The notes below the pieces were generated by a model that was not told the DNA's origin, did not search any database, and saw nothing but the letters and a program-made list of their open reading frames with translations. From Streptomyces sp. NBC_01231 (GTDB lineage: Bacteria > Actinomycetota > Actinomycetes > Streptomycetales > Streptomycetaceae): a stretch of 64,000 bases of DNA. Shown here in pieces: positions 317-45,868 of the stretch. The position numbers were made by a program, and so were the translations under genes. Location of the stretch: the NCBI GenBank assembly GCA_035999765.1, contig CP108521.1, positions 9,858,001 to 9,922,000 of the forward strand, in the 5' to 3' direction. Each line of letters begins with the position of its first letter. The first letter of the stretch is position 1.

Positions 317-1459
317 ATGCGCCGAACGATCTTCACCGAGGAACACGAGCTGTTCCGCGAGACCGCCCGCACGTTCTACCTGCGCGAATGCGCCCCGTAC
401 GCCGAGCAGTGGGAGCGCGACGGCCAGGTGAGCCGGGCCGCGTGGGCGGCGGCGGGCAAGGCCGGACTCATCGGCTGGCAGTTCCCGGAGGAGTACGGCG
501 GCCAGGGCATCCGGGACTTCCGCTACAACGCGATCATGGCGGAGGAGATGGCGGCCACCAGCTCGGTCGGTATCGGGCTGGGGCTGCAGAACGACGTCAT
601 CCCGCCCTATCTGATGAACCTCACCACACCTGAGCAGAAGGCCCGCTGGCTGCCCGGTGTCGTCAGCGGCGAGACGATCTGCGCGCTCGCCCTGTCCGAG
701 CCCTCCGCCGGGTCGGACCTCAAGGGCCTCCGCACCACCGCTCGCCGGGACGGCGACGAGTGGGTGATCGACGGGTCCAAGACGTTCATCACCAACGGCA
801 TCCTGGCCGACCTGGTCGTCGTCGCCTGCAAGACCGACCCGGACGCCGGCCACAAGGGCATCAGTCTGATCGTCGTGGAGCGCGGCGCCGAGGGCTTCGA
901 ACGCGGACGCAAGCTCGACAAGGTCGGGATGAAGGCCCAGGACACCGCCGAGCTCTTCTTCCACGAGGTCCGCGTCCCCGCCGAGAACCTCATCGGACAG
1001 GAGGGCCGCGGTTTCTACCACATGATGGGCAACCTCCCCACCGAGCGGCTCGCCATCGCCGTGTCCTCTCTCGCGGCGGCCGAGCGGGCCTACGTGCTGG
1101 CGCTGGAGTACGCCAAGACCCGTACGGCCTTCGGGCAGCCCATCGGGGAGTTCCAGGCCAACAGGTTCGCGCTCGCCGACATCAGGGCCAAGCTGAACGT
1201 GGCCCGGGTCTACGTGGACGGCTGCATCATGGCCCTCTTCCAGGGGGAGCTGACGGCCGACGAGGCCGCGGCCGCCAAGTACTGGACCTCGGAGACCGGC
1301 TGGGAGGTCATCGACCGGTGCATGCAGCTCTTCGGTGGCTACGGCTACGTCAACGAGTACGAGATCGCCCGCATCTGGCGGGACAGCCGGGTGCAGCGGG
1401 TCTTCGGCGGCACCTCGGAGATCATGCTGGAGATCATCGGGCGGTCGCTCGGGCTGTGA
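317..1459 (+). CDS. Acyl-CoA dehydrogenase (homomeric, LCAD/IVD-like)
   Basis: 380 residues, full length for the family. It should desaturate an acyl-CoA to the 2-enoyl-CoA using FAD and pass electrons to ETF. The usual blocks are present: ALSEPSAGSD near residue 126, the FAD-contact stretch WVIDGSKTFITNG, and the C-terminal FGGTSEIM. The residue before GTSE is Gly, not the Glu used by medium-chain enzymes. The catalytic base is therefore probably Glu243 in PTERLAIA, as in long-chain and isovaleryl-CoA dehydrogenases. It opens a plus-strand operon running to 6206 with aldehyde dehydrogenase, acyl-CoA synthetase-like, Ltp-like and DUF35 genes. Unlike the other four dehydrogenases here it has no adjacent partner subunit. 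The chain length or branching of the substrate is unknown. Confidence 0.92.
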   Translation: MRRTIFTEEHELFRETARTFYLRECAPYAEQWERDGQVSRAAWAAAGKAGLIGWQFPEEYGGQGIRDFRYNAIMAEEMAATSSVGIGLGLQNDVIPPYLMNLTTPEQKARWLPGVVSGETICALALSEPSAGSDLKGLRTTARRDGDEWVIDGSKTFITNGILADLVVVACKTDPDAGHKGISLIVVERGAEGFERGRKLDKVGMKAQDTAELFFHEVRVPAENLIGQEGRGFYHMMGNLPTERLAIAVSSLAAAERAYVLALEYAKTRTAFGQPIGEFQANRFALADIRAKLNVARVYVDGCIMALFQGELTADEAAAAKYWTSETGWEVIDRCMQLFGGYGYVNEYEIARIWRDSRVQRVFGGTSEIMLEIIGRSLGL

Positions 1460-3083: not shown

Positions 3084-4658
3084 ATGCATTCCGCCCGCCG
3101 CCTGACGTTCGGCGACATCATCCGTGAGCACCGACGGTCCTTCCCCGACGGAGTAGCCCTCGTCGACGGCGACGTCCGGCTGACCTGGCCCCAGGTGGAC
3201 GAGCGCACCAACCGGCTCGCCCACGCCCTCGCGGACGCGGGCGTCGGCTCCGGCGACCGCATCCTGTGGCTCGGCCAGAACTCGTACCGGATCTGGGAGC
3301 TCCTCGGCGCCGCCGCGAAGGTCGGCGCCATGGTCTGTCCCGGCTACTGGCGCTGGGCCGCCCCCGAGATGGCCTTCGCGGTCGAGGACTTCGACCCCAA
3401 GGTCGTCGTCTGGCAGGACGAGGAGATCGGCGACACGGTCGCCAAGGCACGAGCCGAACTCGGCAGCGACCACCGGGCGTTGTGGCTCCAGCACGACACC
3501 GAGGGACCCGGGTCGTACGAGTCCTTCCTGGCCTCCGGCTCACCCGAGGACCTGATCGCCGACGTCGACCCCGACGCCGCTCTCCTGGTCATCTACACCG
3601 CGGCGATCTCCGGCCGACAGTCCGGCTCGATGCTCTCGCACCGCAACCTGCTCGCCATGGGGACGAGCGCCGCCTGGATGGGGGACATCGGCACGGAGAC
3701 CGCCTTCCTCGGGGCCGGCCCCATGTTCCACATCGGCAACTACCAGTTCTGGGGCGTCCCGGCCTTCGTCCACGGCGGCAAGAACGTGGTCGTCCGCCGC
3801 GTGGTCGCCGAGGAGCTGCTCCCGCTCCTGGCGGCGGAGCAGTGCACCCACGCCTACCTGATGCCCCCGACCATCGCGCAACTCGTCGAATTGAACCGCG
3901 AGGCCGGCCACGACCTCTCCCACCTGCGCGCGAGCGTCGCCGCCCCCCTGTGGCAGGGCACCGTCCCCACCGACACCAGCCGCTTCACCCGCAACGGCGG
4001 CGGCGAGGGCCGCGGCTACGGACAGACCGAGGTGACCGGCTTCGCCGTGACCGGCGCCTACGGCGGCTCGGGCACCGGCAACGCGGGCCGCCCCGGCCCC
4101 TTCACCGCCGTACGCGTCCTGGACGGCACCGGCACGGAGAGCGCGGTCGGCGAGGCCGGCGAGATCTGTGTCCGCGGCGACCTGGTGCACCTCGGCTACT
4201 GGAACCGGCCCGAGGTCAACGAGGAACGCTTCCGCTTCGGCTGGTGGCACACCACCGACCTCGGCCGGCGCGAGAGCGACGGCACGATCAGCTTCCTCGG
4301 GACGACGACCCGCATGCTCAAGTCGGCCGCCGAGAACATCTTCCCGGCCGAGGTGGAGAACTGCATCGAGTCGCACGCCGCGGTGAAGGAGGCCGCCGTG
4401 ATCGGCGTGCCGAACGAGCGCTGGGCCCAGGACGTCAAGGCCGTGGTCGTGCGCCGGCCGGGCGCCGAGCCGGTCACGGCTCAGGACGTCATCGAGCACT
4501 GCCGGGCGCGGATCGCCTCGTACAAGAAGCCGAAGACGGTCGAGTTCGTCGAGGCACTGCCGCGCACCAAGGACTACGCCAAGGACTACGAGGCGCTCGA
4601 CGAGCGCTTCGGCGGGGGCGGCTATCCCGGCGGCGACACCCTCGGCGCGGGACGGTGA
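3084..4658 (+). CDS. Acyl-CoA synthetase homologue with altered P-loop
   Basis: 524 residues of the ANL (AMP-binding) superfamily. Recognisable parts are the GYGQTEVTGF motif (A5), GEICVRGDLVHLGYWN, and the TDLGRRESDG hinge. The A3 phosphate loop, normally TSGTTGxPKG, reads YTAAISGRQSGSMLSH at about residues 171-186 and lacks the Thr-rich run and the Lys. The C-terminal A10 lysine motif (normally TxxGKxxR) is also irregular: PRTKDYAKDYEAL. The fold is clear, but normal adenylation is doubtful unless this is a family-specific variant. It follows the ALDH at 48 bp with an ATG start behind TTTTGGAG. It may ligate CoA with altered chemistry, act as a CoA-binding or hydrolytic protein, or be regulatory. 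Confidence 0.8.
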   Translation: MHSARRLTFGDIIREHRRSFPDGVALVDGDVRLTWPQVDERTNRLAHALADAGVGSGDRILWLGQNSYRIWELLGAAAKVGAMVCPGYWRWAAPEMAFAVEDFDPKVVVWQDEEIGDTVAKARAELGSDHRALWLQHDTEGPGSYESFLASGSPEDLIADVDPDAALLVIYTAAISGRQSGSMLSHRNLLAMGTSAAWMGDIGTETAFLGAGPMFHIGNYQFWGVPAFVHGGKNVVVRRVVAEELLPLLAAEQCTHAYLMPPTIAQLVELNREAGHDLSHLRASVAAPLWQGTVPTDTSRFTRNGGGEGRGYGQTEVTGFAVTGAYGGSGTGNAGRPGPFTAVRVLDGTGTESAVGEAGEICVRGDLVHLGYWNRPEVNEERFRFGWWHTTDLGRRESDGTISFLGTTTRMLKSAAENIFPAEVENCIESHAAVKEAAVIGVPNERWAQDVKAVVVRRPGAEPVTAQDVIEHCRARIASYKKPKTVEFVEALPRTKDYAKDYEALDERFGGGGYPGGDTLGAGR

Positions 4659-4662
4659 CCCG

Positions 4663-5814
4663 GTGAACGGCCGCCAACCCGTCGTCGTCGGGGTGCACGC
4701 GACTGCACAGGCGCTGACACTGCCCGACCGCGACGCCATGGACCTCGCCCTCGAAGCGGTGCGCGGCGCGATCGCGGACGCCGGGCTCACCCCGGCCGAC
4801 GTCGACGGCGCCCAGGTCGACTGGCCCGGCCCGGGCGGTGTACCCGGCGAGGGCAGCTCCTGGGCGCGCATGCTCGGCCGGGACCTGCGCTGGACCAGCG
4901 ACTCGATGCTCGACAACGCCGGCTCGCGGGGCCTGCTGAAGGCGGCCGCCGCCATCAGCGCCGGATACGCGGACACCGTCGTCGTCGGCGGCTGCAAACT
5001 GGTCGCGCGCGGCGCGGGGCCCGTGGGTGCAGGGGTACCGCTGGAGTTCGCCGACGTGTGGGGCAGTTATGTCGTGGCCCAGTTCGCGCTGGTGGCGGCA
5101 CGGCACATGCACGAGTACGGCACGACCCCCCGCCAGCTCGCGGAGGTCGCCGCCACCATCCGCAACAACGGCACCACCAACCCGGAGGCGATGATGTACG
5201 GCCGCGGTCCGTACACCGCCGACGACGTGCTCGCCTCCCGTATGGTCGCCACGCCCTTCCACCTGCTGGACTGCTGCATCGTGGGCGAAGGCGGTGCGGC
5301 CCTCGTGGTGACCACCGCCGAACGGGCCCGCGACCTGCCGCACCCGCCCGTCGCCGTGCTCGGCGGTGGCATGGAGTACCACCAGGCCGCGTACGCCAAC
5401 CCGGCACTGCACCGGGAGGTCGGGCAGCTCGGCCGGGACGCCGCCACCCGCGCCTTCGCGATGGCCGACGTCAGTCCGCACGACGTGGACGTCTTCTCCC
5501 TCTACGACCCCAACTCCTTCGAAGTCATCCGGCAGTTGGAGGCCCTCGGTCTGTGCGGCGAGGGCGAGGGCGGACCGCTCGCCGCCAGCGGTGCCATCGC
5601 CGTGGGCGGCAAGCATCCCGTCAACCCCGACGGCGGCTGTCTGTCGTACTCCTGGAACGGAACCCAGCAGATGACCCTCAAAGTCGTCGAAGCCGTACGG
5701 CAGTTGCGCGGGACCGCCGTGCACCAGGTCGAGGGTGCGGAGCTGGCGGTCGTCGGCAACGCCGGATCAGGCGCGCAACACTACGAGATGAGCGTGCTGG
5801 GGAGGACGCGATGA
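4663..5814 (+). CDS. Ltp-type thiolase-fold protein, predicted retro-aldolase
   Basis: 383 residues, a lipid-transfer-protein-like (SCP-x/thiolase) fold. The nucleophilic Cys of true thiolases is replaced by Gly87 in LDNAGSRGL, so it is not a normal thiolase. The position of the thiolase HDxF motif reads LYDPNSF. In steroid side-chain degradation, Ltp2-type proteins also lack the Cys, use tyrosines, and cleave a beta-hydroxyacyl-CoA by retro-aldol reaction only together with a DUF35 partner. A DUF35 gene follows here with a 4-bp overlap, which is that arrangement. The GTG start lies 4 nt after the upstream stop. The prediction is aldol cleavage releasing acetyl- or propionyl-CoA plus a ketone or aldehyde. 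The substrate is unknown. Confidence 0.82.
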   Translation: MNGRQPVVVGVHATAQALTLPDRDAMDLALEAVRGAIADAGLTPADVDGAQVDWPGPGGVPGEGSSWARMLGRDLRWTSDSMLDNAGSRGLLKAAAAISAGYADTVVVGGCKLVARGAGPVGAGVPLEFADVWGSYVVAQFALVAARHMHEYGTTPRQLAEVAATIRNNGTTNPEAMMYGRGPYTADDVLASRMVATPFHLLDCCIVGEGGAALVVTTAERARDLPHPPVAVLGGGMEYHQAAYANPALHREVGQLGRDAATRAFAMADVSPHDVDVFSLYDPNSFEVIRQLEALGLCGEGEGGPLAASGAIAVGGKHPVNPDGGCLSYSWNGTQQMTLKVVEAVRQLRGTAVHQVEGAELAVVGNAGSGAQHYEMSVLGRTR

Positions 5815-6206
5815 GCCGGCCCGTACCCGTTCCCACCGAGCTGTCCGAACGGTTCTGGGAAGCGGCCCAACGCGGCGACCTGGTCGTCCCGTACTGCCCG
5901 GCCTGCGACCTGCGCTTCTTCGTTCCCGAGCCCGCCTGTCCCGGGTGCATGGGGCCGGACTGGTGGTACGCGCCCAGCGCGGGCCGGGGGACCGTCTACT
6001 CGGTGACGGTGGTGCACCGCGCACCCGGCCCGGGCTTCGACACGCCCTTCGCGCTCGCCGTGATCGACCTCGACGACGGCGGCACCCTGCTCTCGCACGT
6101 CGACGCCGGCGATCCCAACGCCGTCGTCATCGGCCTGCGTGTGCGCGTCGACTTCCGGCGCTTCACGGACGAGATCACCCTGCCGTATTTCGTGCCGGAG
6201 AGTTGA
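5811..6206 (+). CDS. DUF35 Zn-ribbon/OB-fold partner of the Ltp protein
   Basis: 131 residues. The N-terminal helix (SERFWEAAQRGDL) is followed by a rubredoxin-like zinc ribbon with Cys29, Cys32, Cys43 and Cys46 (CPAC-x10-CPGC) and an OB-fold with the typical GTVYSVTVVHRAP start. DUF35 proteins bind acyl-CoA and couple hydratases, thiolases or aldolases. The ATG overlaps the stop of the Ltp gene by 4 bp, which implies a stoichiometric complex. It resembles the C-terminal domain of ChsH2 without the MaoC half; MaoC proteins are separate genes at 17228, 25257 and 25706. Confidence 0.9.
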   Translation: MSRPVPVPTELSERFWEAAQRGDLVVPYCPACDLRFFVPEPACPGCMGPDWWYAPSAGRGTVYSVTVVHRAPGPGFDTPFALAVIDLDDGGTLLSHVDAGDPNAVVIGLRVRVDFRRFTDEITLPYFVPES

Positions 6207-15682: not shown

Positions 15683-15756
15683 TCCGGTACGGCCTCGGGA
15701 CCGGACCTTCTGACCCGAAACGAGGAGATGCGGGCGAAACATTGTCGTAGTTTGCT

Positions 15757-15801
15757 CGAAGTGTTAGCGTCCGGTCGGCGGACATTCAGCTGAATGCGCT
15801 A
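15757..15801 (+). promoter_or_regulatory. Palindromic promoter region f before the GH1-fold gene
   Basis: The perfect 12-bp palindrome ATTCAGCTGAAT (15784-15795) lies about 32 bp before the ATG at 15828. Around it, TTAGCG near 15765 and CGCTAA at 15797-15802 form a wider inverted repeat. It shares AGCT/TTAG elements with the other islands but is less AT-rich. Operator function is inferred. Confidence 0.45.
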
Positions 15802-15827: not shown

Positions 15828-17249
15828 ATGAGCGATGGTTTCCTGCTCGAATCCCTTCGCGGTGTCGACTGGGGCGTCGCCACCGCGGACGCCATCGCGG
15901 CCCCACTGCCGCCCCCGCCCGAGCGCGGCGGGCACTTCCGGCAGTGGACCGACGACATCCGGCAGCTGACCGGTGTGGTCACGGACACGCACCGGATGGT
16001 CGCCGGCTGGTCGCAGCTCCAGCCCGACGGGCCCGGCAGCTGGGACGAAGAGGCCCTGGACCGCTGCGACCGCGCGCTCGACACCCTGCTCGCGCAGGGG
16101 ACGCGCCCCAGCCTCACCCTGCTCGACCGCTCACTGCCGCCGTGGCTGGACGACGAGGGCGGCTGGCTCGCCCGCGACACCGCCGAACACTTCGCGGCAT
16201 ACGCCGCCGAGCTGGGCCGTCGCTTCGGCGACCGGGTGGAGCGCTGGATCACCTCCACCGACCTGGCCGGTCCCACACTCGCTGACCATGTGGCCGGCAT
16301 GTACTCCCCGGGCCGGGGTGTCGGCAGGGCCGGACTGGCCGCGGTCCACCACATCCTGCTCGCCAACGGGCTCGCGACCCAGGCCCTGAGGGCCGTCGGC
16401 GCCCAGGGCCGGATCGGCACCACGGTCACCCTCGTCGGCGGCTACCCCGCCACCGAGGACCCCTACGACCGCCTCGCCCTGGAGCGCCTGGAGAGCTGGA
16501 CCAACCGCCTCTTCCTCGACCCCCTCCTGCTCGGCGAGCACATGGTGACCGAGGACGACGCCGTTCCCGTCGCGGACACCGGCTGCGTACGCCCCGGTGA
16601 CCTGGAGGTCATCGCCACCGCCCAGGACCTGCTGGGCCTGTCCTGGCACACCCCGTTCCGGGTCACCGCCCCGGAGAACCTGCCCCGCGTCCTGCCGACA
16701 GCGAAGTGCCTCGGCGCCCTCAACGAGGTGAACCGGCTGCTCGTCGGCCTCGGCTTCGCCATCGTTCCCTTCGACGAGGTGGAGACGACGGCGTACGGCT
16801 GGCCCATCATCCCGGAAGGTCTCGCCGACGCCGTCGGGGGCCTCCACGACCTCTACGGGGACCTGCTGCCACCCCTGTCGATCATCGACAACGGCATGGG
16901 CGACCTGGACCTGGTCGACGAGTCGGGACGCAGTGACGACACCCGGCGTCGGGCTCTGCTGCGAGCCCGCCTCACCTGGCTGGGGCGACTCGTCGTGGCC
17001 GGGGTGAACGTCTGCGGCTACGAGTACTGGTCGGTGCTCGACAACCTGGAGGCGAAGTTCCGCTACACCCGTCTCTACGCGATGGCCGTGCCGGACCACG
17101 AGCCCCCGCCGCGCCCCTCGATCCCGTCGGACTGGGTGCGCGGGGGAGTGTTCGCCCACCCCGACGCCGTCGTCCTCGGCGAGGGCCGCGCGGCCGGGCT
17201 GACCCTGGTGCCGGCCGCCGCCCGGACTCAGAGGGTGTCGTCCCCGTAG
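15828..17249 (+). CDS. GH1-fold (beta-glucosidase-like) protein, both catalytic Glu replaced
   Basis: 473 residues, a length typical of glycoside hydrolase family 1. Family landmarks are clear: GVDWGVATAD near the N-terminus, GGWLARDTAEHFAAYAAEL, RFGDRVERWIT, AVHHILLANGLATQALR and YWSVLDNLE near the C-terminus. The acid/base motif TLNEP reads TSTDL (Asp145), and the nucleophile motif ITENG reads IIDNG (Asp354). The sugar-binding Gln of QIEG, the HW pair and the Trp of NFEW are also lost. Retaining glycosidase activity of the normal kind is therefore unlikely. It lies among acyl-CoA genes and overlaps the convergent MaoC gene by 22 bp. It could be a binding protein, a scaffold or an enzyme with new chemistry. 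The ATG at 15828 is preferred; a TTG at 15807 is possible. Confidence 0.8.
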   Translation: MSDGFLLESLRGVDWGVATADAIAAPLPPPPERGGHFRQWTDDIRQLTGVVTDTHRMVAGWSQLQPDGPGSWDEEALDRCDRALDTLLAQGTRPSLTLLDRSLPPWLDDEGGWLARDTAEHFAAYAAELGRRFGDRVERWITSTDLAGPTLADHVAGMYSPGRGVGRAGLAAVHHILLANGLATQALRAVGAQGRIGTTVTLVGGYPATEDPYDRLALERLESWTNRLFLDPLLLGEHMVTEDDAVPVADTGCVRPGDLEVIATAQDLLGLSWHTPFRVTAPENLPRVLPTAKCLGALNEVNRLLVGLGFAIVPFDEVETTAYGWPIIPEGLADAVGGLHDLYGDLLPPLSIIDNGMGDLDLVDESGRSDDTRRRALLRARLTWLGRLVVAGVNVCGYEYWSVLDNLEAKFRYTRLYAMAVPDHEPPPRPSIPSDWVRGGVFAHPDAVVLGEGRAAGLTLVPAAARTQRVSSP

Positions 17250-17740
17250 TCCTTGCCCCGGATCAGCCGCACCGGTGTGTAGACCAGCACGTCCTCGTCA
17301 TGCTGGTTGCGCACGGTGATCCGGCTGGTGACCACGCCCCGGCCGGGCCTGCTGGACGGCCGGGAGCCGGTGGTCTCCACCACGGCGTACAGCGTGTCGC
17401 CGACGTACACCGGGCCCCGCACGGTCAGCTCCATGTGCAGGAAGGCGAGGCCGGTGCCGTGCAGCGCGTTCGTCTGCAGGACGAGTCCTTCGGCGATGCA
17501 GTACGTCAGCGCGCCCGGGACCAGCCGGCCGGTGTAACCACCTTCCGCGGCGTGTGAGGCGTCCCAGAAGAGCGGCTCGTTGAAACCGCCCCAGGTGATG
17601 AAGTTGACCAGGTCGGTCTCGGTGATGGTGCGGCGGGCGGTCCGGAAGATCTGCCCTTCCGGCATCTCCTCGTAGGTCATCCCCCTGACCAGCGGAGGGA
17701 TCTCGGTAGTGGTGTACTCCGTGGTGTACTCCGACGTCAT
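17228..17740 (-). CDS. MaoC-like hotdog protein
   Basis: 170 residues from the ATG at 17738-17740, which follows GAGGAG; longer upstream starts run into the decamer repeats. It has a hotdog fold of the MaoC dehydratase group (RTITETDLVNFITWGG; GRLVPGALTYCIAEGLV; VYVGDTLYAVVETTGSRPS). The hydratase motif GDxNPxHxD reads GGFNEPLFWD, so the catalytic Asp/His pair is not standard. It may hydrate 2-enoyl-CoA as part of a heteromer, or be a non-catalytic subunit. It is downstream of the crotonase at 17834 and its 3' end overlaps the GH1-fold gene. Confidence 0.82.
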   Translation of the reverse strand: MTSEYTTEYTTTEIPPLVRGMTYEEMPEGQIFRTARRTITETDLVNFITWGGFNEPLFWDASHAAEGGYTGRLVPGALTYCIAEGLVLQTNALHGTGLAFLHMELTVRGPVYVGDTLYAVVETTGSRPSSRPGRGVVTSRITVRNQHDEDVLVYTPVRLIRGKDYGDDTL

Positions 17741-17790
17741 CGCGGGCTCCTCAAGCATCGGTGGGTATCCGTGGTGGCGGTGGTGTCCGT

Positions 17791-19955: not shown

Positions 19956-21134
19956 ATGGAAGTGGACTTCGGGCCCGCGGTACGCGACTTCCGCGACGAG
20001 CTGCGGGACTGGCTGGCGGACCACCTGGTGGGGGAGTTCGCCGATCACCGGGGCGTGGGCGGCCCCACCGACGGCGCGGCCTGGGAGGTCCGCCTCGCCT
20101 GGGACCGCGAACTGTCCGCCGGGAACTGGCTGGGCGTCGGCTGGCCCCGGGAGTACGGCGGACGCGGACTCGGACTCCTTGAGGAGATCGTCTTCGAGTA
20201 CGAATACGCCCGGGCGAACGCCCCCTACCGGGCCACGGTCAACGCCCTCGACCTGCTCGGTCCGATGCTCCTCAAGGTGGGCGGGGAAACGCAGAAGAAG
20301 CGCTTCCTGCCGCCGATCCTCGCCGTCGAGGAACTGTGGGGTCAGGGCTTCAGCGAACCCGGCGCCGGTTCCGACCTGGCGTCGGTCCGCACCCGGGCCG
20401 ATCGTGACGGCGACAGCTGGGTGGTCAACGGACAGAAGGTGTGGACGTCCTTCGGCATGCACGCAGACTGGCTGTACGTCCTCACCCGCACCGACCCCCA
20501 GTCCGTGCGGCACAAGGGCCTGACCATGCTGCTCCTGCCCACCGACCAGCCGGGCGTCGAGATCCGCCCCATCCGCAACCTCGCCGGCCAGGACGAGTTC
20601 GCCGAGGTCTTCCTCTCCGACGCGCGCACCGGCGCCGACATGGTCGTCGGTGAGGTCGGGCAGGGCTGGCGCACGGCCATGGCCACCCTCGGCATCGAAC
20701 GCGGCACCACGCTCCTTCCCCAGCAGCTCACCTTCGAGCGGGAGGCCGAGGCGGTGATCGACCTGGCCCGGGACCGGGGCGCGCTCGACGACCCGATGCT
20801 GCGCCGCCGGATCGTGGACGCCTGGATCTCCGTACGCATCATGCGCACCACCAACCTGCGCACCCTCGCCGAACTGACCGCGGGCCGCACCCCCGGCGCA
20901 CAGGCCACCACGGCCAAGCTGTACGCCTCGACCCGTCACCAGCAACTCGGCCAGCTGGCAACGGAGTTGGCAGGTCCCGCCGGACAGGTCGTCGGCGAGG
21001 ACTACGGCCTGGACACCCGTCAGCGCTCCTTCCTGCTCGCCCTGGCGGAGACGATCTACGGCGGATCCAGCGAGATCCAGCGCAACATCATCGGGGAACA
21101 GCTCCTCGGCCTGCCGAAGGAGCCCCGGCCATGA
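19956..21134 (+). CDS. Acyl-CoA dehydrogenase catalytic subunit (FadE26/27-like)
   Basis: 392 residues. Motifs are GQGFSEPGAGSDLAS, WVVNGQKVWTSFG and the C-terminal IYGGSSEIQRNIIGEQ. The catalytic Glu is probably in LGIERGTT, the position used by heteromeric sterol-type enzymes. It pairs with the upstream subunit at 18764. The start of the SnoaL-like gene overlaps its end by 4 bp. Confidence 0.92.
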   Translation: MEVDFGPAVRDFRDELRDWLADHLVGEFADHRGVGGPTDGAAWEVRLAWDRELSAGNWLGVGWPREYGGRGLGLLEEIVFEYEYARANAPYRATVNALDLLGPMLLKVGGETQKKRFLPPILAVEELWGQGFSEPGAGSDLASVRTRADRDGDSWVVNGQKVWTSFGMHADWLYVLTRTDPQSVRHKGLTMLLLPTDQPGVEIRPIRNLAGQDEFAEVFLSDARTGADMVVGEVGQGWRTAMATLGIERGTTLLPQQLTFEREAEAVIDLARDRGALDDPMLRRRIVDAWISVRIMRTTNLRTLAELTAGRTPGAQATTAKLYASTRHQQLGQLATELAGPAGQVVGEDYGLDTRQRSFLLALAETIYGGSSEIQRNIIGEQLLGLPKEPRP

Positions 21135-21646
21135 CATCGCTCGAGGACCGCGTCGAACGCATCGAGTCGCAGCTGGCCATCCAGCAACTGCCCGTCCGTT
21201 ACGCGCTCGCCGTGGACGCCCGTGACCTCGACGCCTGGGTGGGCTGTTTCCGTCCCGATGTGGACATGGGGCGCCACGGCCGCGGCCGGGAGGTGCTGCG
21301 GGCCCACATCGAGCCCCTCGTGCGAGGCTTCAGGCGGTCGGTCCACCAGATCTGCGGCCACCGGGTCGAGTTCACGGGTCCCGACACCGCGACCGGTTCC
21401 GTCTACTGCCGTGCCGAGCACGAGGTGGGGGAGCGGTGGATCGTCATGGCCATCCGCTATCTCGACGAGTACGCGCGCGTGGACGGCGAGTGGTACTTCT
21501 CCCGGCGCCGCGAGCAGCACTGGTACGCGGCCGATGTCACCGAGCGGCCCCAGGCAGTGGGATTCAACGGCTGGAAGGAGGGATCCGGCGAACCGGTGCT
21601 ACCGGACGCGTTTCCCTCCTGGGCGGCCTTCTGGAAGGAGACGTGA
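21131..21646 (+). CDS. SnoaL/NTF2-like protein
   Basis: 171 residues with an NTF2-like cone fold (LEDRVERIESQLAIQQLPVRYALAVDARDLDAWVGCF; WYFSRRREQHWYAADV). Proteins of this type are isomerases, cyclases, dehydratases or small-molecule binders. It overlaps the dehydrogenase by 4 bp and the SDR by 1 bp, so it is translated with a redox pair. A ketosteroid-isomerase-like or dehydratase role on a polycyclic acid is possible but not shown. Confidence 0.85.
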   Translation: MTSLEDRVERIESQLAIQQLPVRYALAVDARDLDAWVGCFRPDVDMGRHGRGREVLRAHIEPLVRGFRRSVHQICGHRVEFTGPDTATGSVYCRAEHEVGERWIVMAIRYLDEYARVDGEWYFSRRREQHWYAADVTERPQAVGFNGWKEGSGEPVLPDAFPSWAAFWKET

Positions 21647-22401
21647 TGGCACGGTTGTCCGGAAAGACAGCGCTGGTCACCGGTGGAGGACAGGGCGTGG
21701 GGCGCGGTATCGCGCTCGCGCTGGCAGCCGAGGGAGCGGCCGTCGCGATCACCGGCCGGACCGAGAGCAAGCTGAAGGACACGGCGGGGGAGATCGCCGA
21801 GCGCGGCGGGCGGGCGCTCACCGTCGTCGGGGACGTCGGGGAGCGAGACGACGTCGACCGTATGGTGGCCGAGACGGTCCGGGAGTTCGGCGGGCTCGAC
21901 GTGCTCGTCAACAACGCGCAGAGCTCCGTGCAGCGTCGGCTGGAGGAGACGTCGTACGACGATGTCGAACTCACGTACCGCAGTGGCCCGTTGGCCGCCT
22001 TCCACGCGATGCTGGCAGCCCTGCCCCACCTGAAGGCCAGCCGGGGCAGCGTGGTGAACCTCGGCTCCTCGGCCGCGGTGCAGGGAGAGGTGACCTTCGG
22101 GGCGTACGCGATGGCCAAGGAGGCGGTCCGGGGACTGACCCGGGTGGCCGCGCGGGAGTGGGGCGCGTACGGGATCCGGGTGAACGTCGTCTGCCCTGCC
22201 GCGCTGAGCCCCGCGGCGGAGGCGTTCTTCGCCGATCACCCCGAGAAGGCCGAACACGTGCTGGCCGGCATCCCGTTGGGTCGCATGGGCGACCCGGAGG
22301 CGGACATCGGCCGGGCGGTGGCCGCGCTGGTCAGTGACGACATGGCCTATCTGACGGGAGCGACCCTGATGCTGGAGGGCGGGCGGACCCTGATCGGCTG
22401 A
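21646..22401 (+). CDS. SDR-family oxidoreductase
   Basis: 251 residues from the ATG at 21646 (TGATG overlap with the previous gene). It has the cofactor motif TGGGQGVG, NNAQ in place of NNAG, catalytic Ser in NLGSSAAVQG and YAMAK. An Arg after the second strand (TGRTESK) suggests NADPH. It is the last gene of the operon; a short GC hairpin follows. A 3-hydroxyacyl-CoA or ketone redox step is the likely role. Confidence 0.88.
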   Translation: MARLSGKTALVTGGGQGVGRGIALALAAEGAAVAITGRTESKLKDTAGEIAERGGRALTVVGDVGERDDVDRMVAETVREFGGLDVLVNNAQSSVQRRLEETSYDDVELTYRSGPLAAFHAMLAALPHLKASRGSVVNLGSSAAVQGEVTFGAYAMAKEAVRGLTRVAAREWGAYGIRVNVVCPAALSPAAEAFFADHPEKAEHVLAGIPLGRMGDPEADIGRAVAALVSDDMAYLTGATLMLEGGRTLIG

Positions 22402-28761: not shown

Positions 28762-29943
28762 TCAGCGGCTGATCAGCTGCTGGGCGTTGTTGTACATGAT
28801 GTCGTCCTGGACCGACTCGTCGAGTTCCGCGAGGAGCTTGCGGTAGTCGGCCGGGTTGGCGATGCCCTCCGCGTGCGGGAAGTCGGAGCCCATCACGATG
28901 GACTCGTGGTACCCGAGGCGCTTGACCAGGCTCGGGATGTCGTCCTCCGGGTAGGGCACCACACGCACGTGCTTGCGGAAGATCTGGCTGGGACGCTCGT
29001 CCAACTGGCCGCCGAGCCACGGACCGTTGCGGCCCATACCCCGGCTCTTGTCCATGTGGCGCACGAAGTGCGGCACCCACTCGGCGCCGAACTCGGACAC
29101 CAGGACGTTGATGTCGGGGAAGCGGCCGAAGAGGTTGTCGAAGATCAGCGCGGACAGCGTCTCCTCGATCGGGCGCTGACCGTAGGTGTTCATCCACTGC
29201 CACGCGGACATCCGGAAGTGGATGGGGTTCGGGTCGTGGCCCCAGGCCGGGGCGACCTTCGAGTTGTAGTAGAACTCGCTGATGTGGTAGCAGACGCTGG
29301 CCTTGGCCTCGTTGACCAGCTTCCAGAACGGGTCGAAGTACGGGTCACCGGGGGAGCGGCCGTACTGCGGGCCGGTCGGCAGCATGATGAACCGGGCGCC
29401 CTGCTCCAGGACGTACTCCAGCTCCTTGACCGCGCTGTCCAGATCGCGCAGGGACAGCAGCGCGGGAGCGTAGATACGGCCCTGGTGGTTGAAGCCCCAG
29501 ACCTCGTTCATGTACCGGTTGAAGGAGTGGTAGTTGGCGTAGAGCGGCTCGACGCCCTTCACGTACTCCTCAGCCACCAGCGCCCAGCCGCCCGGGTAGA
29601 TGATCGTCTGGTCCAGGCCCTGCTCGTCCATGACGCGCAGCCGGGCCTCGCGGTTCTGGTACGACTCGTGCATCGGCTCGAACTGGTACGTCTCCTCGGG
29701 GTTGCCCGAGGCCATCGCCTTGAGCATCTCCTTCAGCGAGCCGGGACGGTAGACCTGCCCGAACTCCGGTTCCAGGCAGACGACGATCCGGTCCCCGGCG
29801 AGGATCACCTCCCGCCCGTCCGGCAGGGTCACCGGTGCGACCGCCGCACCGAGGAACTCCTTCGGGAGGTAGCGGGTGAAGGAGTCCCGCTCCTCGTACA
29901 TGTGCTGGTCGCAGTCGAAGATGCGCTTGCGCTGTTCGGCCAT
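28762..29943 (-). CDS. Amidohydrolase-superfamily protein (ACMSD-like)
   Basis: 393 residues from the ATG at 29941-29943, which has GGAGG 8 nt upstream. It is a metal-dependent TIM-barrel protein: FDCDQHMYEE gives the first metal motif, CYHISEF a His, and GSDFPHAEG the conserved Asp. Relatives decarboxylate or hydrolyse small acids and CoA-pathway intermediates. It is monocistronic, under island h, divergent from nothing and followed by a terminator. The substrate is not predictable. Confidence 0.88.
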   Translation of the reverse strand: MAEQRKRIFDCDQHMYEERDSFTRYLPKEFLGAAVAPVTLPDGREVILAGDRIVVCLEPEFGQVYRPGSLKEMLKAMASGNPEETYQFEPMHESYQNREARLRVMDEQGLDQTIIYPGGWALVAEEYVKGVEPLYANYHSFNRYMNEVWGFNHQGRIYAPALLSLRDLDSAVKELEYVLEQGARFIMLPTGPQYGRSPGDPYFDPFWKLVNEAKASVCYHISEFYYNSKVAPAWGHDPNPIHFRMSAWQWMNTYGQRPIEETLSALIFDNLFGRFPDINVLVSEFGAEWVPHFVRHMDKSRGMGRNGPWLGGQLDERPSQIFRKHVRVVPYPEDDIPSLVKRLGYHESIVMGSDFPHAEGIANPADYRKLLAELDESVQDDIMYNNAQQLISR

Positions 29944-30058: not shown

Positions 30059-30862
30059 TCAGTCGAGGAGTTCGAGCACCGTCTTGGGTCCGGCGGCGTT
30101 CACCACGTCGTCGGCGCTGGAGATGTGCCGCTGCCACAGCTTCTCGGCCTCGTCGGCCTTGCCGGACTCGATCAGGCCGACCATCCGCACATGCGCCCGG
30201 TGCCCCTTGAGGGCCTGTGCCTTCTGGGTCTCGGCATCGGTGGCGGCCGCGGTGTACGAGGCGTTGGCCCGGTCGATGATGGTGCGCAGCATCCCGCACA
30301 GCAGGATCAGGGTCTGGTTGCCGGTGAGTTCGACCAGGAGGGCGTGGAAGGTGTCCTGCGCTTCGACCAGGGCGAGCGGGTCGTCCAGGACAGACTTCTC
30401 CGCGGCCACCGCGTCGCGCAGCCGCTTGATGTCGTCGGCCGTGTGCTTGACGGCGAGCTGGCGGGCGCAGGGCGGCTCGATGAGGGCCGCCGCGCGGTAG
30501 ATGTCGCCCAGGGTGGCGCCCCGGTACTCGAGGATCAGGCCGGCGAAGCGGGCGGCCACATCGGCGTCGGGGGCGCTCACCCGGGCGCCACCGTGGGCGC
30601 CGCGGCGCACCGTGATCAGGGACTCCGACTCCAGTACCCGGAAGGCCTCGCGCAGGGTCGGCCGCGAGATGCCGAACTGCTCCATCAGCCCCGACTCCGG
30701 CGGCAGCGCGTCGTCGGGCTTCAGTTCGCCCCGTACGATCTGGCGGCGCAGGTGCGCGGCGACCAGCTCGGCGGTCTTCGGTACCCGCACCTGGCGTCCG
30801 ACGCGGCTGCGGGAGGGGGCGGGTACGGTCGCCGCTTCTGCTGCGCGGGCTGCCTCGGCCAC
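30059..30862 (-). CDS. FadR-subfamily GntR transcriptional regulator 2
   Basis: 267 residues, GTG start behind GAGGAG. The winged helix has AELVAAHLRRQIVRGEL and SRPTLREAFRVLESES, nearly the same as regulator 1 at 10290, followed by an FCD domain (AQDTFHALLVELTGNQT). The N-terminal 25 residues are Ala-rich and unlike regulator 1. It is divergent from crotonase 5; its own start is close to ATATAGCAAAATGAATCG, which resembles the palindrome at 30981. It probably represses the catabolic island until an acyl-CoA appears. Confidence 0.93.
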   Translation of the reverse strand: MAEAARAAEAATVPAPSRSRVGRQVRVPKTAELVAAHLRRQIVRGELKPDDALPPESGLMEQFGISRPTLREAFRVLESESLITVRRGAHGGARVSAPDADVAARFAGLILEYRGATLGDIYRAAALIEPPCARQLAVKHTADDIKRLRDAVAAEKSVLDDPLALVEAQDTFHALLVELTGNQTLILLCGMLRTIIDRANASYTAAATDAETQKAQALKGHRAHVRMVGLIESGKADEAEKLWQRHISSADDVVNAAGPKTVLELLD

Positions 30863-36193: not shown

Positions 36194-37444
36194 ATGCCCG
36201 CCCCCCTGCGTGACGCGGTGATCTGCGAACCCCTGCGTACCCCCGTCGGCGGCTACGGCGGTGCCTTCCGCGACGTGACGGCGGCCGAACTCGCGGCCAC
36301 GGTCATACGCGCCGTGCTGGAACGCACCGGCATACCGCCCGCCGCCGTGGACGACGTCCTGCTGGGTCAGTGCTACCCGAACGGCGAGGCACCCGCCATC
36401 GGCCGGGTCGCCGCCCTGGACGCGGGCCTGCCCGTGGAGGTGCCGGGACTGCAGATCGACCGCCGCTGCGGCTCCGGACTTCAGGCGATCATCACCGCGG
36501 CGATGCAGGTGCAGACCGGCGCGAGTGACCTCGTGCTGGCCGGTGGTGTCGAGTCCATGAGCCAGGCCGAGTTCTACACCACCGACGTGCGCTGGGGCGT
36601 GCGCGGCGCGGGCACCACGCTGCACGACCGGCTGGCCCGCGGCCGGGTCACCTCCGGCGGCGTCAACCACCCCGTCGCGGGTGGCATGTTGGAGACCGCC
36701 GAGAACCTGCGGCGCGAGTACGGCATCCCCCGCGAGGAACAGGACGAACTCGCCCTGCGCTCCCACGAGAAGGCCGTCGCGGCCCAGCGGGAGGGCCGGT
36801 TCACCGACGAGATCGTGCCCGTCACCGTACGCGGCCGGAAGGGCGAGACGGTCGTCGACACCGACGAACACCCGCGCCCCGACTCCTCGTTGGACAAGCT
36901 CGCCAAACTCCGTCCCGTCCTCGGCCGGCAGGACCCGGAGGCGACCGTCACGGCAGGCAACGCCAGCGGCCAGAACGACGGCGCCGCGCTGTGCGTCGTC
37001 ACCCACCCCGAGCGGGCCGCCGAACTCGGCCTGCGCCCGCTGGGGCGCCTGGTCTCCTGGGCCGTCGTCGGCGTGCCGCCCGAGACGATGGGCATCGGCC
37101 CGGTGCCCGCCACCGCCAGGGCCCTGGAACGGGCGGGCCTGAAGCTCGCCGACATCGACCTGATCGAACTCAACGAGGCCTTCGCCGCCCAGGTGCTCGC
37201 CTGCACCCGCGCATGGGACCTGACCGAGACCGACTTCGAACGGTTCAACGTCAACGGCTCCGGCATCTCGCTGGGCCACCCCGTCGGCGCCACCGGCGGC
37301 CGCATTCTCGCCACCCTGCTGCGCGAACTCGACCGCCGCCAGGCCCGCTACGGCCTGGAGACCATGTGCCTCGGCGGCGGCCAGGGCCTGGCCGCGGTCT
37401 TCGAGCGGCCGACGGACGCAACCAACGCCAATGGAGGTCGCTGA
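36194..37444 (+). CDS. Acetyl-CoA C-acyltransferase (thiolase)
   Basis: 416 residues with a complete thiolase active site: Cys92 in DRRCGSG, NEAFAAQ, GHPVGATGGR and the second Cys in MCLGGGQG. It should cleave a 3-ketoacyl-CoA with CoA, releasing acetyl- or propionyl-CoA, like FadA5. Start ATG after GAAAGG. It is the only protein here with a full degradative thiolase signature. Confidence 0.93.
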   Translation: MPAPLRDAVICEPLRTPVGGYGGAFRDVTAAELAATVIRAVLERTGIPPAAVDDVLLGQCYPNGEAPAIGRVAALDAGLPVEVPGLQIDRRCGSGLQAIITAAMQVQTGASDLVLAGGVESMSQAEFYTTDVRWGVRGAGTTLHDRLARGRVTSGGVNHPVAGGMLETAENLRREYGIPREEQDELALRSHEKAVAAQREGRFTDEIVPVTVRGRKGETVVDTDEHPRPDSSLDKLAKLRPVLGRQDPEATVTAGNASGQNDGAALCVVTHPERAAELGLRPLGRLVSWAVVGVPPETMGIGPVPATARALERAGLKLADIDLIELNEAFAAQVLACTRAWDLTETDFERFNVNGSGISLGHPVGATGGRILATLLRELDRRQARYGLETMCLGGGQGLAAVFERPTDATNANGGR

Positions 37445-37445
37445 C

Positions 37446-38882
37446 ATGGCCGGACTGATCGCATACGGCGCGTACGTGCCGTACCACCGTCTCGCCCGGG
37501 CCGACGTCGCCGCCGTCCTGGGCGCGCGGGGCGGCAAGGGGACCCGCGCGGTCGCGGGCTACGACGAGGACACCACGTCCATGGCGGTGGAGGCGGCCCG
37601 CGGCGCGCTGGCCCGTGACGGCCTGCGCGGCCGCATCGGCCAGCTCTTCCTCGCCACCGCCGCCCCCGCGTACCTCGACAAGACGAACGCGACCGCCGTG
37701 CACGCCGCGCTCGGCCTGGACGAGCACGTGCTCGCCGCCGACATGGCCGGTTCGGTCCGCTCGGGTCTCGGCGCGCTGCTGACCGCCGCCCGCTCCCCGA
37801 TCCCGACCCTGACGGTCCTGTCCGACCTGCGCACCGGCCTGCCCGGCGGCAGCGACGAGATCGCGGGCGGCGACGGGGCGGCGGCGTTCGTCTTCGGTGG
37901 ACACCGCAACGGCGCCCCCGTCATCGCGGAGCTGCTCGCCCACGACACCGTCAGCGACGAGATCCTCGAACGCTGGCGCCTGCCCGGCGCCGCCTCCTCC
38001 CGGGTCTGGGAGGAGCGCTTCGCCGAGGAGATCTACGTGTCCCTCGCGGACAAGGCGCTCACCGCGGCCCTCGACCACGCGGCGATCGACATCGGGTCGA
38101 TCGACCACTTCGCGGTCGCGGGCCTGCATGCCCGCGCGTGCGCGGCGGTCCGGCGCACCGCCGGTGTCCGCCCCGAGGCGGTGACTCCGGACCTGGCCGG
38201 AGCGATCGGCAACGCCGGCACCGCCCAGCCCGGGCTGCTCCTCGCCGACGTCCTCGACCGGGCCCGGCCCGGCGAGACCATCGCCCTCGTCGTGCTCGGC
38301 GACGGCGCCGGAGTCCTCCTGCTGCGCGCCACCGACGCCCTCCCGGCCCACCGCGCGGCCCGCCCGGTCTCCGCCCAGATCGCGCAGGGCAGCGCCCCGA
38401 TGCCGTACGCCACCTACCTGACCTGGCGCGGCCTCCTCGACCGCGAACCACCCCGTCGGCCGGATCCCGAGCCGCCCTACGCCCCGCCCGCCCACCGCCG
38501 CAACGGCTGGAAGTACGGCTTTGTCGCCTCCCGTTGCGAGAAGTGCGGCACCCGGCATCTGCCGCCGGACCGGGTGTGCACCTCCTGCCGGAGCGTCGAC
38601 GCCATGACCGACGAGCCGATGGAGCACGTGCGCGGCACGGTCGCCACGTTCACCGTCGACCGGCTGGCCCACACCCCGAGCCCGCCGATGCTCGTCGTGG
38701 TCGTCGACTACGACGGCGGCGGCCGGTTCCGCTGCCAGCTGACCGACGCCACCGAGGCCGACGCCGTCATCGGCGCCCGGGTGGAGATGACCTTCCGGCG
38801 CACCGTCACCGCGTCCGGCGTGCACAACTACTTCTGGAAGGCCCGGCCGGTGCGCACGGGCGAGACCGAGGGGACACACTGA
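37446..38882 (+). CDS. HMG-CoA synthase-like/DUF35 fusion lacking the catalytic Cys
   Basis: 478 residues; ATG 8 nt after GGAGG. Residues 1-335 have the HMG-CoA synthase/KAS III-like thiolase fold (YGAYVPYHRL; DEDTTSMAVEAAR; TAAPAYLDKTNA; GGDGAAAFVFG). The catalytic Cys motif, normally EACxGGT, reads AADMAGS with Asp99 at the Cys position. Residues 355-478 are a DUF35 domain with a zinc ribbon (Cys364, Cys367, Cys378, Cys381) and an OB-fold. The next gene is a thiolase with a 1-bp overlap. Thiolase, DUF35 and HMG-CoA synthase are known to form one complex in archaea and in the PhlACB acyltransferase, so a tripartite complex is likely. The dead synthase half may be structural. Confidence 0.85.
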   Translation: MAGLIAYGAYVPYHRLARADVAAVLGARGGKGTRAVAGYDEDTTSMAVEAARGALARDGLRGRIGQLFLATAAPAYLDKTNATAVHAALGLDEHVLAADMAGSVRSGLGALLTAARSPIPTLTVLSDLRTGLPGGSDEIAGGDGAAAFVFGGHRNGAPVIAELLAHDTVSDEILERWRLPGAASSRVWEERFAEEIYVSLADKALTAALDHAAIDIGSIDHFAVAGLHARACAAVRRTAGVRPEAVTPDLAGAIGNAGTAQPGLLLADVLDRARPGETIALVVLGDGAGVLLLRATDALPAHRAARPVSAQIAQGSAPMPYATYLTWRGLLDREPPRRPDPEPPYAPPAHRRNGWKYGFVASRCEKCGTRHLPPDRVCTSCRSVDAMTDEPMEHVRGTVATFTVDRLAHTPSPPMLVVVVDYDGGGRFRCQLTDATEADAVIGARVEMTFRRTVTASGVHNYFWKARPVRTGETEGTH

Positions 38883-40090
38883 TGGGCTCGCACGGAATCA
38901 GGGACCGGGTCGCGATCGTCGGCATGGGCTGCACGCCCTTCGGCGAGCACTGGACCCGCTCGGCGGACGACCTGCTGATCGACGCCGTCGGTGAGGCGGT
39001 CACCTCGGCCGGCATCACCCTCGACGACATCGACGCGTACTGGTTCGGCACCCAGGCGTCCGGCGTGTCCGGGCTGACCCTGAGCCGGGCGCTCCACCTG
39101 CCCAACAAGCCGGTCACCCGCGTCGAGAACATGTGCGCGACCGGCTCCGAGGCTTTGCGCAACGCCTGCTACGCCGTCGCCTCCGGGGCGTACGACGTGG
39201 CGATGGCCGTCGGTGTGGAGAAGCTCAAGGACTCCGGGATGTCCGGGCTGTCGGGCACCGTCATCCCGGGCGCGGGCGACGACAGCCGCGGGGAGATCAC
39301 CGCCCCGGCGAACTTCTCCCTCCTCGCCCCCGCCTACGCCGCCAAGTACGGCCTGGCGGACGAGGAGATGAAGGACGTCATCACCCGGATCGCCTGGAAG
39401 AACCACTTCAACGGGGCCCGCAACCCCCGCGCCCAGTTCCGCAAGGAGGTCCCGCCTGAGCGCATCAAGGCGGCCCCGATCGTCGCGGGCATGCTCGGTG
39501 TCTTCGACTGCTCGGGCGTCTCGGACGGCTCCGCGGCGGCGATCGTCGTCCGCGCGGAGGACGCCTACCGGTACACCGACAAGCCGATCTTCGTGAAGGC
39601 GCTGTCCTTCGTCGCCGGCCCGGCGGACGGGCTCCTCGACCCGGAGTACGACTTCACCACCTTCCCCGAGGTCGTCGCCTCCGCGCAGGAGGCCTACCGC
39701 CAGGCGGGCATCACCGACCCGCGTACCGAGCTGGCGCTGGCCGAGGTCCACGACTGCTTCACGCCGACCGAGTTGGTGCTGATGGAGGACCTGGGCTTCT
39801 CCGAGCGCGGCCAGGGCTGGAAGGACGTCACCAGCGGGGCGTTCGACCTGGACGGCTCGCTGCCGGTCAACCCGGACGGCGGCCTGAAGGCCTTCGGTCA
39901 CCCCATCGGCGCCTCCGGCCTGCGGATGATGTTCGAGGCGTGGCTGCAACTGCGGGGCGAGGCACCGGCCGAGCGGACCGTGCAGTCGGTGGCCGAAGGA
40001 CGCTCGCTCGCCCTCACCCACAACCTCGGCGGCGGACCCGGCGAGTGCGTCTCGTTCGTGTCGGTCGTCGGCAGTCAACTCACCGAGTAG
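38882..40090 (+). CDS. Thiolase-family acyltransferase (archaeal/SCP-x type)
   Basis: 402 residues, start in a TGATG overlap. It has Cys85 in ENMCATGSEA, the HDCF motif in EVHDCFTPTEL, and GHPIGASGLR; the C-terminal loop HNLGGGPGEC is of the archaeal/SCP-x type. It looks catalytic, unlike the Ltp protein at 4663. Being coupled to the HMG-CoA synthase-like/DUF35 fusion, it should act in a shared complex with acyl-CoA held by the OB-fold. Cleavage or condensation are both possible. Confidence 0.9.
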   Translation: MGSHGIRDRVAIVGMGCTPFGEHWTRSADDLLIDAVGEAVTSAGITLDDIDAYWFGTQASGVSGLTLSRALHLPNKPVTRVENMCATGSEALRNACYAVASGAYDVAMAVGVEKLKDSGMSGLSGTVIPGAGDDSRGEITAPANFSLLAPAYAAKYGLADEEMKDVITRIAWKNHFNGARNPRAQFRKEVPPERIKAAPIVAGMLGVFDCSGVSDGSAAAIVVRAEDAYRYTDKPIFVKALSFVAGPADGLLDPEYDFTTFPEVVASAQEAYRQAGITDPRTELALAEVHDCFTPTELVLMEDLGFSERGQGWKDVTSGAFDLDGSLPVNPDGGLKAFGHPIGASGLRMMFEAWLQLRGEAPAERTVQSVAEGRSLALTHNLGGGPGECVSFVSVVGSQLTE

Positions 40091-40106: not shown

Positions 40107-40901
40107 ATGGGGCGACTCGAAGACAAGATAGCCGTCGTCACCGGGGCCGCGTCCGGCATCGGCGCGGCCACCGCCCGCCGTCTGGCGGTCGAGGGCGCGC
40201 ACACGGTGGTCGCCGACCTCAACCTCGACGGCGCCAAGGCGGTGACGGAGGAGATCCGCGCCGCCGGGGGCTCCGCGACGGCGGTCGCCGTCGACCTCGG
40301 TGACGTGGAGAGCGTACGGGCCATGGTGGCCGCGGCGGTCGAGACGTACGGCGGCCTCGACGTCCTGCACAACAACGCGGCGGCCACCCACCTGGCCGCC
40401 CGCCAGGACCTCGCCGTCGTGGACGCCGATCCGGCGGTGTGGGACGACACGATGCGCATCAACCTGCGCGGGACCATGGTCGCCATCCAGGCCGCCGTCC
40501 CGCACATGGTCGCGCGCGGCGGCGGCTCCATCATCAACACCTCGTCCGGCGCCGGCCTCTCCGGCGACCTGCGCAATCCCGCGTACGGGGCGTCCAAGGC
40601 CGCCCTCATCAACCTCACGCAGTACGTCGCCACCCAGTACGGCAAGCAGGGCGTGCGCTGCAACGCCATCGCGCCGGGGTTCATCGTCACGCCGGCCAGT
40701 TCCGGTTCGGCGCACGGGGCGATCAGGGAGGCGATGCTGCGCCATCACCTCACCCCGCGCCTGGGGCGCCCGGAGGACGTCGCGTCGGCGGTCGTCTTCC
40801 TCGCGTCCGACGAGTCGGCCTTCGTCACCGGGCACACCCTGCGGGTGGACGGCGGGCTGCTCTCCCACCAGCCGTACGTCGCGGACCTGCGTGACGCGTG
40901 A
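40107..40901 (+). CDS. SDR-family oxidoreductase
   Basis: 264 residues. TGAASGIG, VADLNLD (Asp, NAD-type), HNNAAATH, NTSSGAG and YGASKAA are present, with GHTLRVDGG near the end. It closes the five-gene operon and is followed 15 bp later by a strong hairpin terminator. Likely 3-hydroxyacyl-CoA or alcohol dehydrogenase. Confidence 0.9.
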   Translation: MGRLEDKIAVVTGAASGIGAATARRLAVEGAHTVVADLNLDGAKAVTEEIRAAGGSATAVAVDLGDVESVRAMVAAAVETYGGLDVLHNNAAATHLAARQDLAVVDADPAVWDDTMRINLRGTMVAIQAAVPHMVARGGGSIINTSSGAGLSGDLRNPAYGASKAALINLTQYVATQYGKQGVRCNAIAPGFIVTPASSGSAHGAIREAMLRHHLTPRLGRPEDVASAVVFLASDESAFVTGHTLRVDGGLLSHQPYVADLRDA

Positions 40902-43732: not shown

Positions 43733-43765
43733 CGGGGAACCTCACGGTGCGGGGCCGAGACAGCA

Positions 43766-43808
43766 CATTCATTTAAATAATTGTGCCGAGAGTACTTCAC
43801 TAACTGCA
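43766..43808. promoter_or_regulatory. AT-rich divergent island m of the Liv operons
   Basis: CATTCATTTAAATAATTG (contains the palindrome ATTTAAAT) and TTCACTAACTGC, which resembles TATCTAACTGT of islands g and h, lie between the two divergent transporter operons. Inclusion in the island regulon is tentative. Confidence 0.45.
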
Positions 43809-45851: not shown

Positions 45852-45868
45852 CTGATTGAGGTGGTTCT

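Follow-up and report, generated by a model that had tools for sequence, protein, structure and literature searches.

A glycoside hydrolase family 1 fold with altered catalytic positions in a Streptomyces acyl-CoA island: a candidate non-glycosidic enzyme of diterpenoid-acid processing

The window considered here, a stretch of 64,000 nucleotides from Streptomyces sp. NBC_01231 (G000:C1:9858001-9922000), lies within an 11.34 Mb single-contig genome and carries an island of acyl-CoA genes, among which an open reading frame (ORF) at 15828-17249 encodes a protein of the glycoside hydrolase family 1 (GH1) fold with changed catalytic residues. The ORF was matched by the Pfam profile Glyco_hydro_1 (PF00232) with an E-value (E) of 2.6e-57 and 194.7 bits, above the curated cut-off of 22.6, and the protein is assigned to the GH1 TIM-barrel fold. 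The NCBIfam profile for beta-glucosidase (TIGR03356) was also aligned (E 3.8e-66), but its 223.7 bits fall below the cut-off of 478.5 and the protein lies outside that equivalog. The closest solved structures are GH1 beta-glucosidases, with 3w53 at E 1.9e-57. The start at 15828 is common to the family, with methionine in 28/28 aligned rows (the GTG starts of L020 and L033 being displayed as Met in this alignment), and no signal peptide was recognised in the ORF on inspection by eye. The same genome has four further GH1 genes (L002-L005, E <= 1e-5), and all of them carry the NEP and ENG motifs.

An earlier note on this DNA held that both catalytic glutamates had become aspartate, and alignment to solved enzymes and to 24 canonical rows bears this out: TSTDL stands for T(x)NEP, with D145 at the acid/base position, and IIDNG for ITENG, with D354 at the nucleophile position. 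An intact glutamate hidden by misalignment, named beforehand as evidence that would overturn this claim, is ruled out at either motif by phmmer, MAFFT and the canonical rows. The residue counts cover 38 distinct rows of the family, left after 19 duplicate loci had been dropped and identical rows collapsed, and 24 canonical ones, of which 22 are distinct. Glutamate occupies the D145-equivalent and the D354-equivalent positions in 24/24 canonical rows. In the family, D354 is invariant, as the suggestion of coordinated Glu-to-Asp changes would have it, but D145 has become serine in one lineage (L078/L100), which rules out a strict Asp/Asp pair as the family hallmark. On the alignments, the constant mark of the family is rather D354 together with E399, a gained glutamate (Phe in 18 and Tyr in 6 of the 24 canonical rows) that sits two residues before W401, outside both catalytic motifs. 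By strand logic, the side chain of E399 is expected at the pocket base near D354. Further positions that are invariant in the family and absent or nearly absent from the canonical rows include W273, H238, E283, N284, N302 and Y400.

The positions that we take to be sugar contacts (Gln, His, Trp, Asn, Tyr, Glu and Trp) were also followed. In the window protein, the Gln of QIEG is I23, the HW pair is D100-R101, the Asn before the acid/base is T144, the Tyr of NYY is H274 and the Trp of NFEW is A409; among the glycone residues only W401 (the Trp of WSLLDN) and E408 are retained, R56 and HH174-175 are kept as well, and the stretch after beta-1 of canonical GH1 proteins is missing. None of the three marks of an active retaining GH1 enzyme, namely a Glu acid/base, a Glu nucleophile and the full set of glycone residues, is found in this protein. 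Across the family, the Gln (Ile 23, Leu 7, Val 6, Thr 1, Ala 1), the Trp of HW and the Asn (Thr in 34) are replaced in 38/38 rows, the Tyr of NYY in 36 (His in 34), the Trp of NFEW in 34 (by Ala) and the His of HW in 31 (Asp 29, Asn 2); R56 and W401 are retained in 38/38 and E408 in 34/38, its position being Gly in L078/L100. Four lineages are distinguished, namely the main one, L038, L078/L100 and L101 (genome G1043). The Gln, the Trp of HW, the Asn and the Glu pair are lost in all four, and most glycone contacts are lost in the main lineage. The loss of sugar contacts claimed for the Gln, the HW pair and the Trp of NFEW stands in full for the window protein and only in part for the whole family, the His being retained in 7/38 rows and the Trp of NFEW in 4/38. 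As far as the alignments go, this retention in divergent lineages argues for stepwise loss.

In the genomes sampled, the family is a rare actinobacterial clade. A family-level gene was found in 7 of 296 relatives including G000, the window genome (two further matches were canonical), in 4 of 394 genomes of the class (the other 18 matches canonical), in 1 of 396 genomes of the phylum, which is G000 (the other 4 canonical), and in 19 of 392 Streptomyces, G000 included; the four samples are not disjoint. When named genomes were scanned, 27 loci were obtained, 26 from Streptomyces and one from a Streptosporangiaceae metagenome-assembled genome, and the named relatives at 73-86% identity belong to Streptomyces. 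A 54-56% relative, carried on a plasmid of Streptomyces sp. NBC_00564, is annotated as 'family 1 glycosylhydrolase', and this public label, on the L078 copy, is probably misleading for the D354/E399 clade. No family member was found in the viral scan; the viral contigs, searched for alignment depth, provided three canonical GH1 rows, one of them full-length and two partial. Loci L074-L076 were rejected as relatives, being chance pattern matches. A quickly built tree with 31 rows sets the 17 family rows apart on one side of a single branch, whose SH-aLRT is 100; the tree tool flags long branches, L101 included, and the placement of L101 is unsure. The ratio dN/dS was 0.26-0.35 across 7 pairs, which points to purifying selection. 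Together with the intact frames and the invariance of D145 and D354 in 28/28 aligned rows, this range rules out decay to a pseudogene or a chance pattern.

The surroundings of the gene are conserved to different degrees. Ten island genes, from an F420-type oxidoreductase (11723) to the SnoaL-like gene (21131), keep their order and orientation in 26 Streptomyces loci. L038 sits in a different acyl-CoA island, with a thiolase, acyl-CoA dehydrogenases (ACADs), enoyl-CoA hydratases (ECHs), CaiB and FadD, and L078 and L102 lie in a third one, 96-100% alike gene by gene, whose products resemble their L038 relatives at 78% (FadD), 72% (ECH), 58% (short-chain dehydrogenase/reductase, SDR), 51-52% (LLM) and 50% (CaiB). 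This third island is seen on a 539 kb linear plasmid and, in G1017, on a 10 Mb contig at roughly 0.25 Mb from its start; the near-identity of the two copies possibly reflects close strains or recent movement. In 60 genomes hand-picked from earlier listings, an orthologue of the thiolase at 4738-5814 (E <= 1e-90) was detected in 18/19 family-positive and 0/41 family-negative genomes; at this threshold it was not found in the L100 genome. The GntR gene at 30059-30790 (E <= 1e-60) occurs in 20/20 positives and in 0/10 negative Streptomyces, but also in G210, and the MaoC gene at 17228-17758 occurs in 8/296 relatives, namely G210 and the 7 Streptomyces that also have the family gene.

Upstream of the gene, a two-part element (Table 1) recurs as GAAAYATTGT-N16-TGTTAGCGTC before the family gene in the window, L038, L078 and L102, with identical spacing, and it is almost unchanged over 28 aligned upstream regions, with small differences in L016, L025, L031 and L039. 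At <=3 mismatches it is present as a single copy in each of 4/5 genomes, always before the family gene; its uniqueness is weak evidence, as about 0.7 chance matches per genome are estimated at even base composition, and the shared position is the real point. The element may be read as a dedicated promoter (TTGTCG-N17-TAGCGT), perhaps with an operator. A promoter common to the whole island is ruled out by its single occurrence in the window. In the stretch after the element no clear leader structure was recognised, the RNA-folding z-scores of three sequences being -1.8, 0.0 and -2.1. A palindrome, CATTCAGCTGAATG, at 15783-15796 is exact in few relatives only.

Table 1. Positions of the GH1-fold gene, its motifs and the island genes within the window.
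Feature	Position	Strand	Remarks
ACAD	317..1459	+	78% to ACAD of the G1043 platensimycin-type locus
Acyl-CoA synthetase	3084..4658	+	68% to G1043 PtmA2
SCP2-type thiolase	4738..5814	+	77% to G1043 locus
OB-fold (ChsH2-type) partner	5811..6206	+	65% to G1043 locus
Element GAAACATTGT-N16-TGTTAGCGTC, promoter-like TTGTCG-N17-TAGCGT	15736..15771	+	Spacing identical in three lineages
GH1-fold non-canonical protein	15828..17249	+	473 aa, ORF confirmed; profile and alignment basis
ATADAIAA, in place of canonical ...AYQIEG; glycone Gln to Ile (I23)	15879..15902	+
TLLDRSLP, in place of canonical TLYHWDLP	16116..16139	+
D145 codon, acid/base position, TSTDL for T(x)NEP	16260..16262	+	Asp 36/38, Ser 2/38 family rows
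D354 codon, nucleophile position, IIDNG for ITENG	16887..16889	+	Asp 38/38 family rows
E399 codon, GYEYWSV	17022..17024	+	Glu 38/38 family rows
ACAD	18764-19882		Best NCBIfam row IpdE2, 215.1 bits vs cut-off 450; Tcur3481 the only PDB match at 1e-40
SnoaL-like protein	21131..21646	+	70% to G1043 locus
SDR	21697..22401	+	70% to G1043 locus
Amidohydro_2 protein	28762..29943	-	Distant PtmU3 relative: PDB 6omp E 1.2e-17; 4dzi closer, E 2.9e-51
GntR/FCD regulator	30059..30790	-	59% to G1043 locus, 68% to one adjoining family gene in L078
HMG-CoA synthase/KAS III-like protein with OB-fold	37431..38882	+	58% to G1043 locus
Thiolase (second)	38882..40090	+	72% to G1043 locus
SDR	40107..40901	+	67% to G1043 locus

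The synthetase of the island is of PtmA2 type, since its matches in the PDB are 5e7q (E 2e-246) and PtmA2 itself (5upq, E 3.2e-246), followed by a next row at 4.7e-68. In genome G1043, a platensimycin-type diterpenoid locus is found upstream of the family gene (L101, 3457582-3458928, 58% identical to the window gene), which sits about 9 kb past it. This locus contains a prenyl synthase, a class I terpene synthase, UbiA, two P450s, a near-identical copy of the ent-copalyl diphosphate synthase 5bp8, and near-copies of PtmA2 (5upq, 1192.2 bits) and PtmU3 (6omp, 805.9 bits). Window genes match ten genes of the locus, including PtmA2, at 58-78% identity; the other genes of the locus reach 23-39% or have no match. 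At L103:2561-5753, phosphoenolpyruvate mutase, phosphonopyruvate decarboxylase and 2-aminoethylphosphonate aminotransferase-like genes are seen. An excerpt of PMC10847714 describes the ptm cluster as the source of platensimycin-type diterpenoids made from ent-copalyl diphosphate (ent-CPP), and a title in its reference list names the acyl-CoA dehydrogenase PtmO4. PtmU3, an amidohydrolase-superfamily TIM barrel, is reported to beta-hydroxylate diterpenoids and to take CoA-ligated substrates (PMC7782822). The platensimycin/platencin genes (PtmA2, PtmU3, ent-CPP synthase) resemble the present system in that relatives of ten window genes and of the GH1-fold gene occur within the G1043 locus or close to it; unlike those systems, the window genome has no match for the ent-CPP synthase. 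At E 1e-20, this synthase was matched in 1/20 family-positive genomes, G1043 itself, and G000 is among the 19 that gave no match.

The best reading of the island, as far as homology and gene order can tell, is a diterpenoid-acid (or similar polycyclic) CoA pathway that would be catabolic in the window genome; since the ent-CPP synthase is unmatched there and in all other family-positive genomes searched but one, these genomes more likely break down a substrate taken from outside. The pathway is probably diterpenoid-type processing rather than plain beta-oxidation, and the protein probably has a non-sugar job in it. Support for such a pathway comes from the repeated acyl-CoA islands (main lineage, L038 and L078/L102) and from the platensimycin-type neighbourhood. 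The new role in a polycyclic or acyl-CoA pathway that had been suggested is partly favoured, by the conservation and by a gene context of acyl-CoA islands in three lineages and a diterpenoid locus near the family gene in the fourth, with plain beta-oxidation appearing improbable.

From the observed family identity, residue changes, conservation and gene context, we infer the substrate class, the catalysis, and the roles and placing of D354 and E399 as follows. The protein would be a neofunctionalised GH1 barrel, intracellular, working in a polycyclic (most likely diterpenoid-acid) CoA pathway. Its former sugar pocket would have been rebuilt, with D354 and E399 at the base, plus W273, H238 and the E283-N284 / N302 segment, and would accommodate a bulky terpenoid acid, either free or as the CoA ester. 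The acid-base role in a hydration, dehydration, isomerisation or ring opening would fall to D354, possibly together with E399, and D354 would not act as a glycosyl nucleophile. An even chance is given to this proposal, in which the enzyme is non-glycosidic, its substrate is a polycyclic terpenoid in acid or CoA-ester form, and D354 (perhaps also E399) provides the acid-base function. It is supported by the presence of D354/E399 in 38/38 family rows against 0/24 canonical rows, by the single branch, by purifying selection, by the loss of glycone contacts, by the acyl-CoA islands and the G1043 neighbourhood and by the co-occurrence with the thiolase and GntR genes, and PtmU3 offers a precedent, from the same pathway, for a hydrolase barrel with new chemistry. 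A broader statement is held more tentatively, with somewhat less than even confidence: that the clade marked by D354 and the last-strand E399 is a non-glycosidic enzyme of bacterial polycyclic diterpenoid-acid degradation, working at a step to which no enzyme has been assigned, that the sister copy in G1043 may take part in processing diterpenoids towards an antibiotic, and that this would be a second hydrolase barrel recruited, after PtmU3, to new chemistry in the pathway.

Several observations weigh against the proposal. Phosphonate-type genes separate the diterpenoid genes of G1043 (SDR end) from its GH1-fold gene and the upstream element was not found in this genome at <=3 mismatches, so that the gene may not belong to the diterpenoid cluster. 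The dN/dS of the GH1-fold gene is higher than that of most neighbours, an incomplete island with no family-level GH1 gene occurs in G210, which belongs to a different genus, and co-occurrence carries no independent weight wherever a single island has been inherited whole. Within the protein, D145 is lost to serine in L078/L100, and three divergent lineages retain the His and the Trp of NFEW, which indicates that the pocket was not rebuilt alike everywhere. Finally, two AlphaFold2 models were poor (pLDDT 53.8 and 58.6, the better model falling below 50 over residues 275-327), and the shape of the pocket and the location of E399 are for this reason deduced from strand positions.

An alternative that is unlikely, yet the best of those considered, is a non-catalytic GH1-fold binder that would hold a terpenoid or CoA intermediate, a partner enzyme or a ligand, following the pseudoenzyme logic of Klotho. 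The KL domains of Klotho share with the window protein a GH1 fold lacking the full catalytic pair, but they are animal cell-surface co-receptors, whereas the window protein is bacterial, belongs to a metabolic island and has an invariant Asp-Glu pair. The invariance of D354, E399 and other polar positions in 38/38 rows goes beyond the need of a bare scaffold, although a binding pocket could also explain it. The constant D354/E399 pair mildly favours catalysis, and non-glycosidic acid-base chemistry is regarded as most likely on these residue patterns, with binding without catalysis less likely.

Another explanation, which appears improbable, is a glycosidase of altered mechanism that would deglycosylate diterpenoid glycosides or glucosyl esters. 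A carboxylate that leaves readily makes the acid catalyst dispensable, as in myrosinase, and the His and the Trp of NFEW retained in divergent lineages leave some room for this activity. The window protein resembles the GH1 beta-glucosidases (PF00232; PDB 3w53, 6ziv, 1gnx) in profile, fold, R56, W401, E408 and HH174-175, yet it differs in the Asp at both catalytic positions, the new E399, the loss of most glycone contacts and the missing stretch after beta-1. Against a glycosidase stand the replacement of the Gln, the Trp of HW, the Asn and both Glu in 38/38 rows, and of the His in 31, the Tyr in 36 and the Trp of NFEW in 34, as well as the Gly in place of E408 in L078/L100; the Ser at the acid/base position of that lineage further argues against a two-carboxylate glycosidase. 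Very improbable is an island for another polycyclic or branched substrate (steroid-like or another terpenoid), in which the protein would act and the G1043 neighbourhood would be incidental, a view favoured by the IpdE2 (215.1 of 450 bits) and Tcur3481 matches of the ACAD at 18764-19882, by the only partial set of ptm-type genes and by the thiolase orthologue missing from the L100 genome, but opposed by a synthetase close to PtmA2 and by ten window genes 58-78% identical to the diterpenoid locus.

A literature search, with a limited library and limited terms, found no GH1 protein whose catalytic role is metabolic and non-glycosidic. Should the non-glycosidic role hold, new chemistry would be added to one of the best-studied glycosidase folds, the D354/E399 gene would serve to recognise one class of diterpenoid-type island among Streptomyces, and a candidate would be at hand for open diterpenoid-processing steps.

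Some minor observations concern the neighbouring genes. A GMC oxidoreductase (533 aa, choline dehydrogenase-like; L016:8306-9907) lies directly before the GH1-fold gene in 12/27 loci, unlike the window, where none is found at that place. A signalling-type block (Roadblock/GTPase) at 6453-10204, which we take to be conservon-like, stands inside the island and also in some relatives (e.g. L016, L017, L020, L040); it is absent in others (e.g. L014, L015, L018), where its flanking genes adjoin. Beside the island (40979-48609), a LuxC-type acyl-CoA reductase is found together with LIV-type ABC transporter genes (40979-45851), and the transporter is a possible uptake system for the island substrate.
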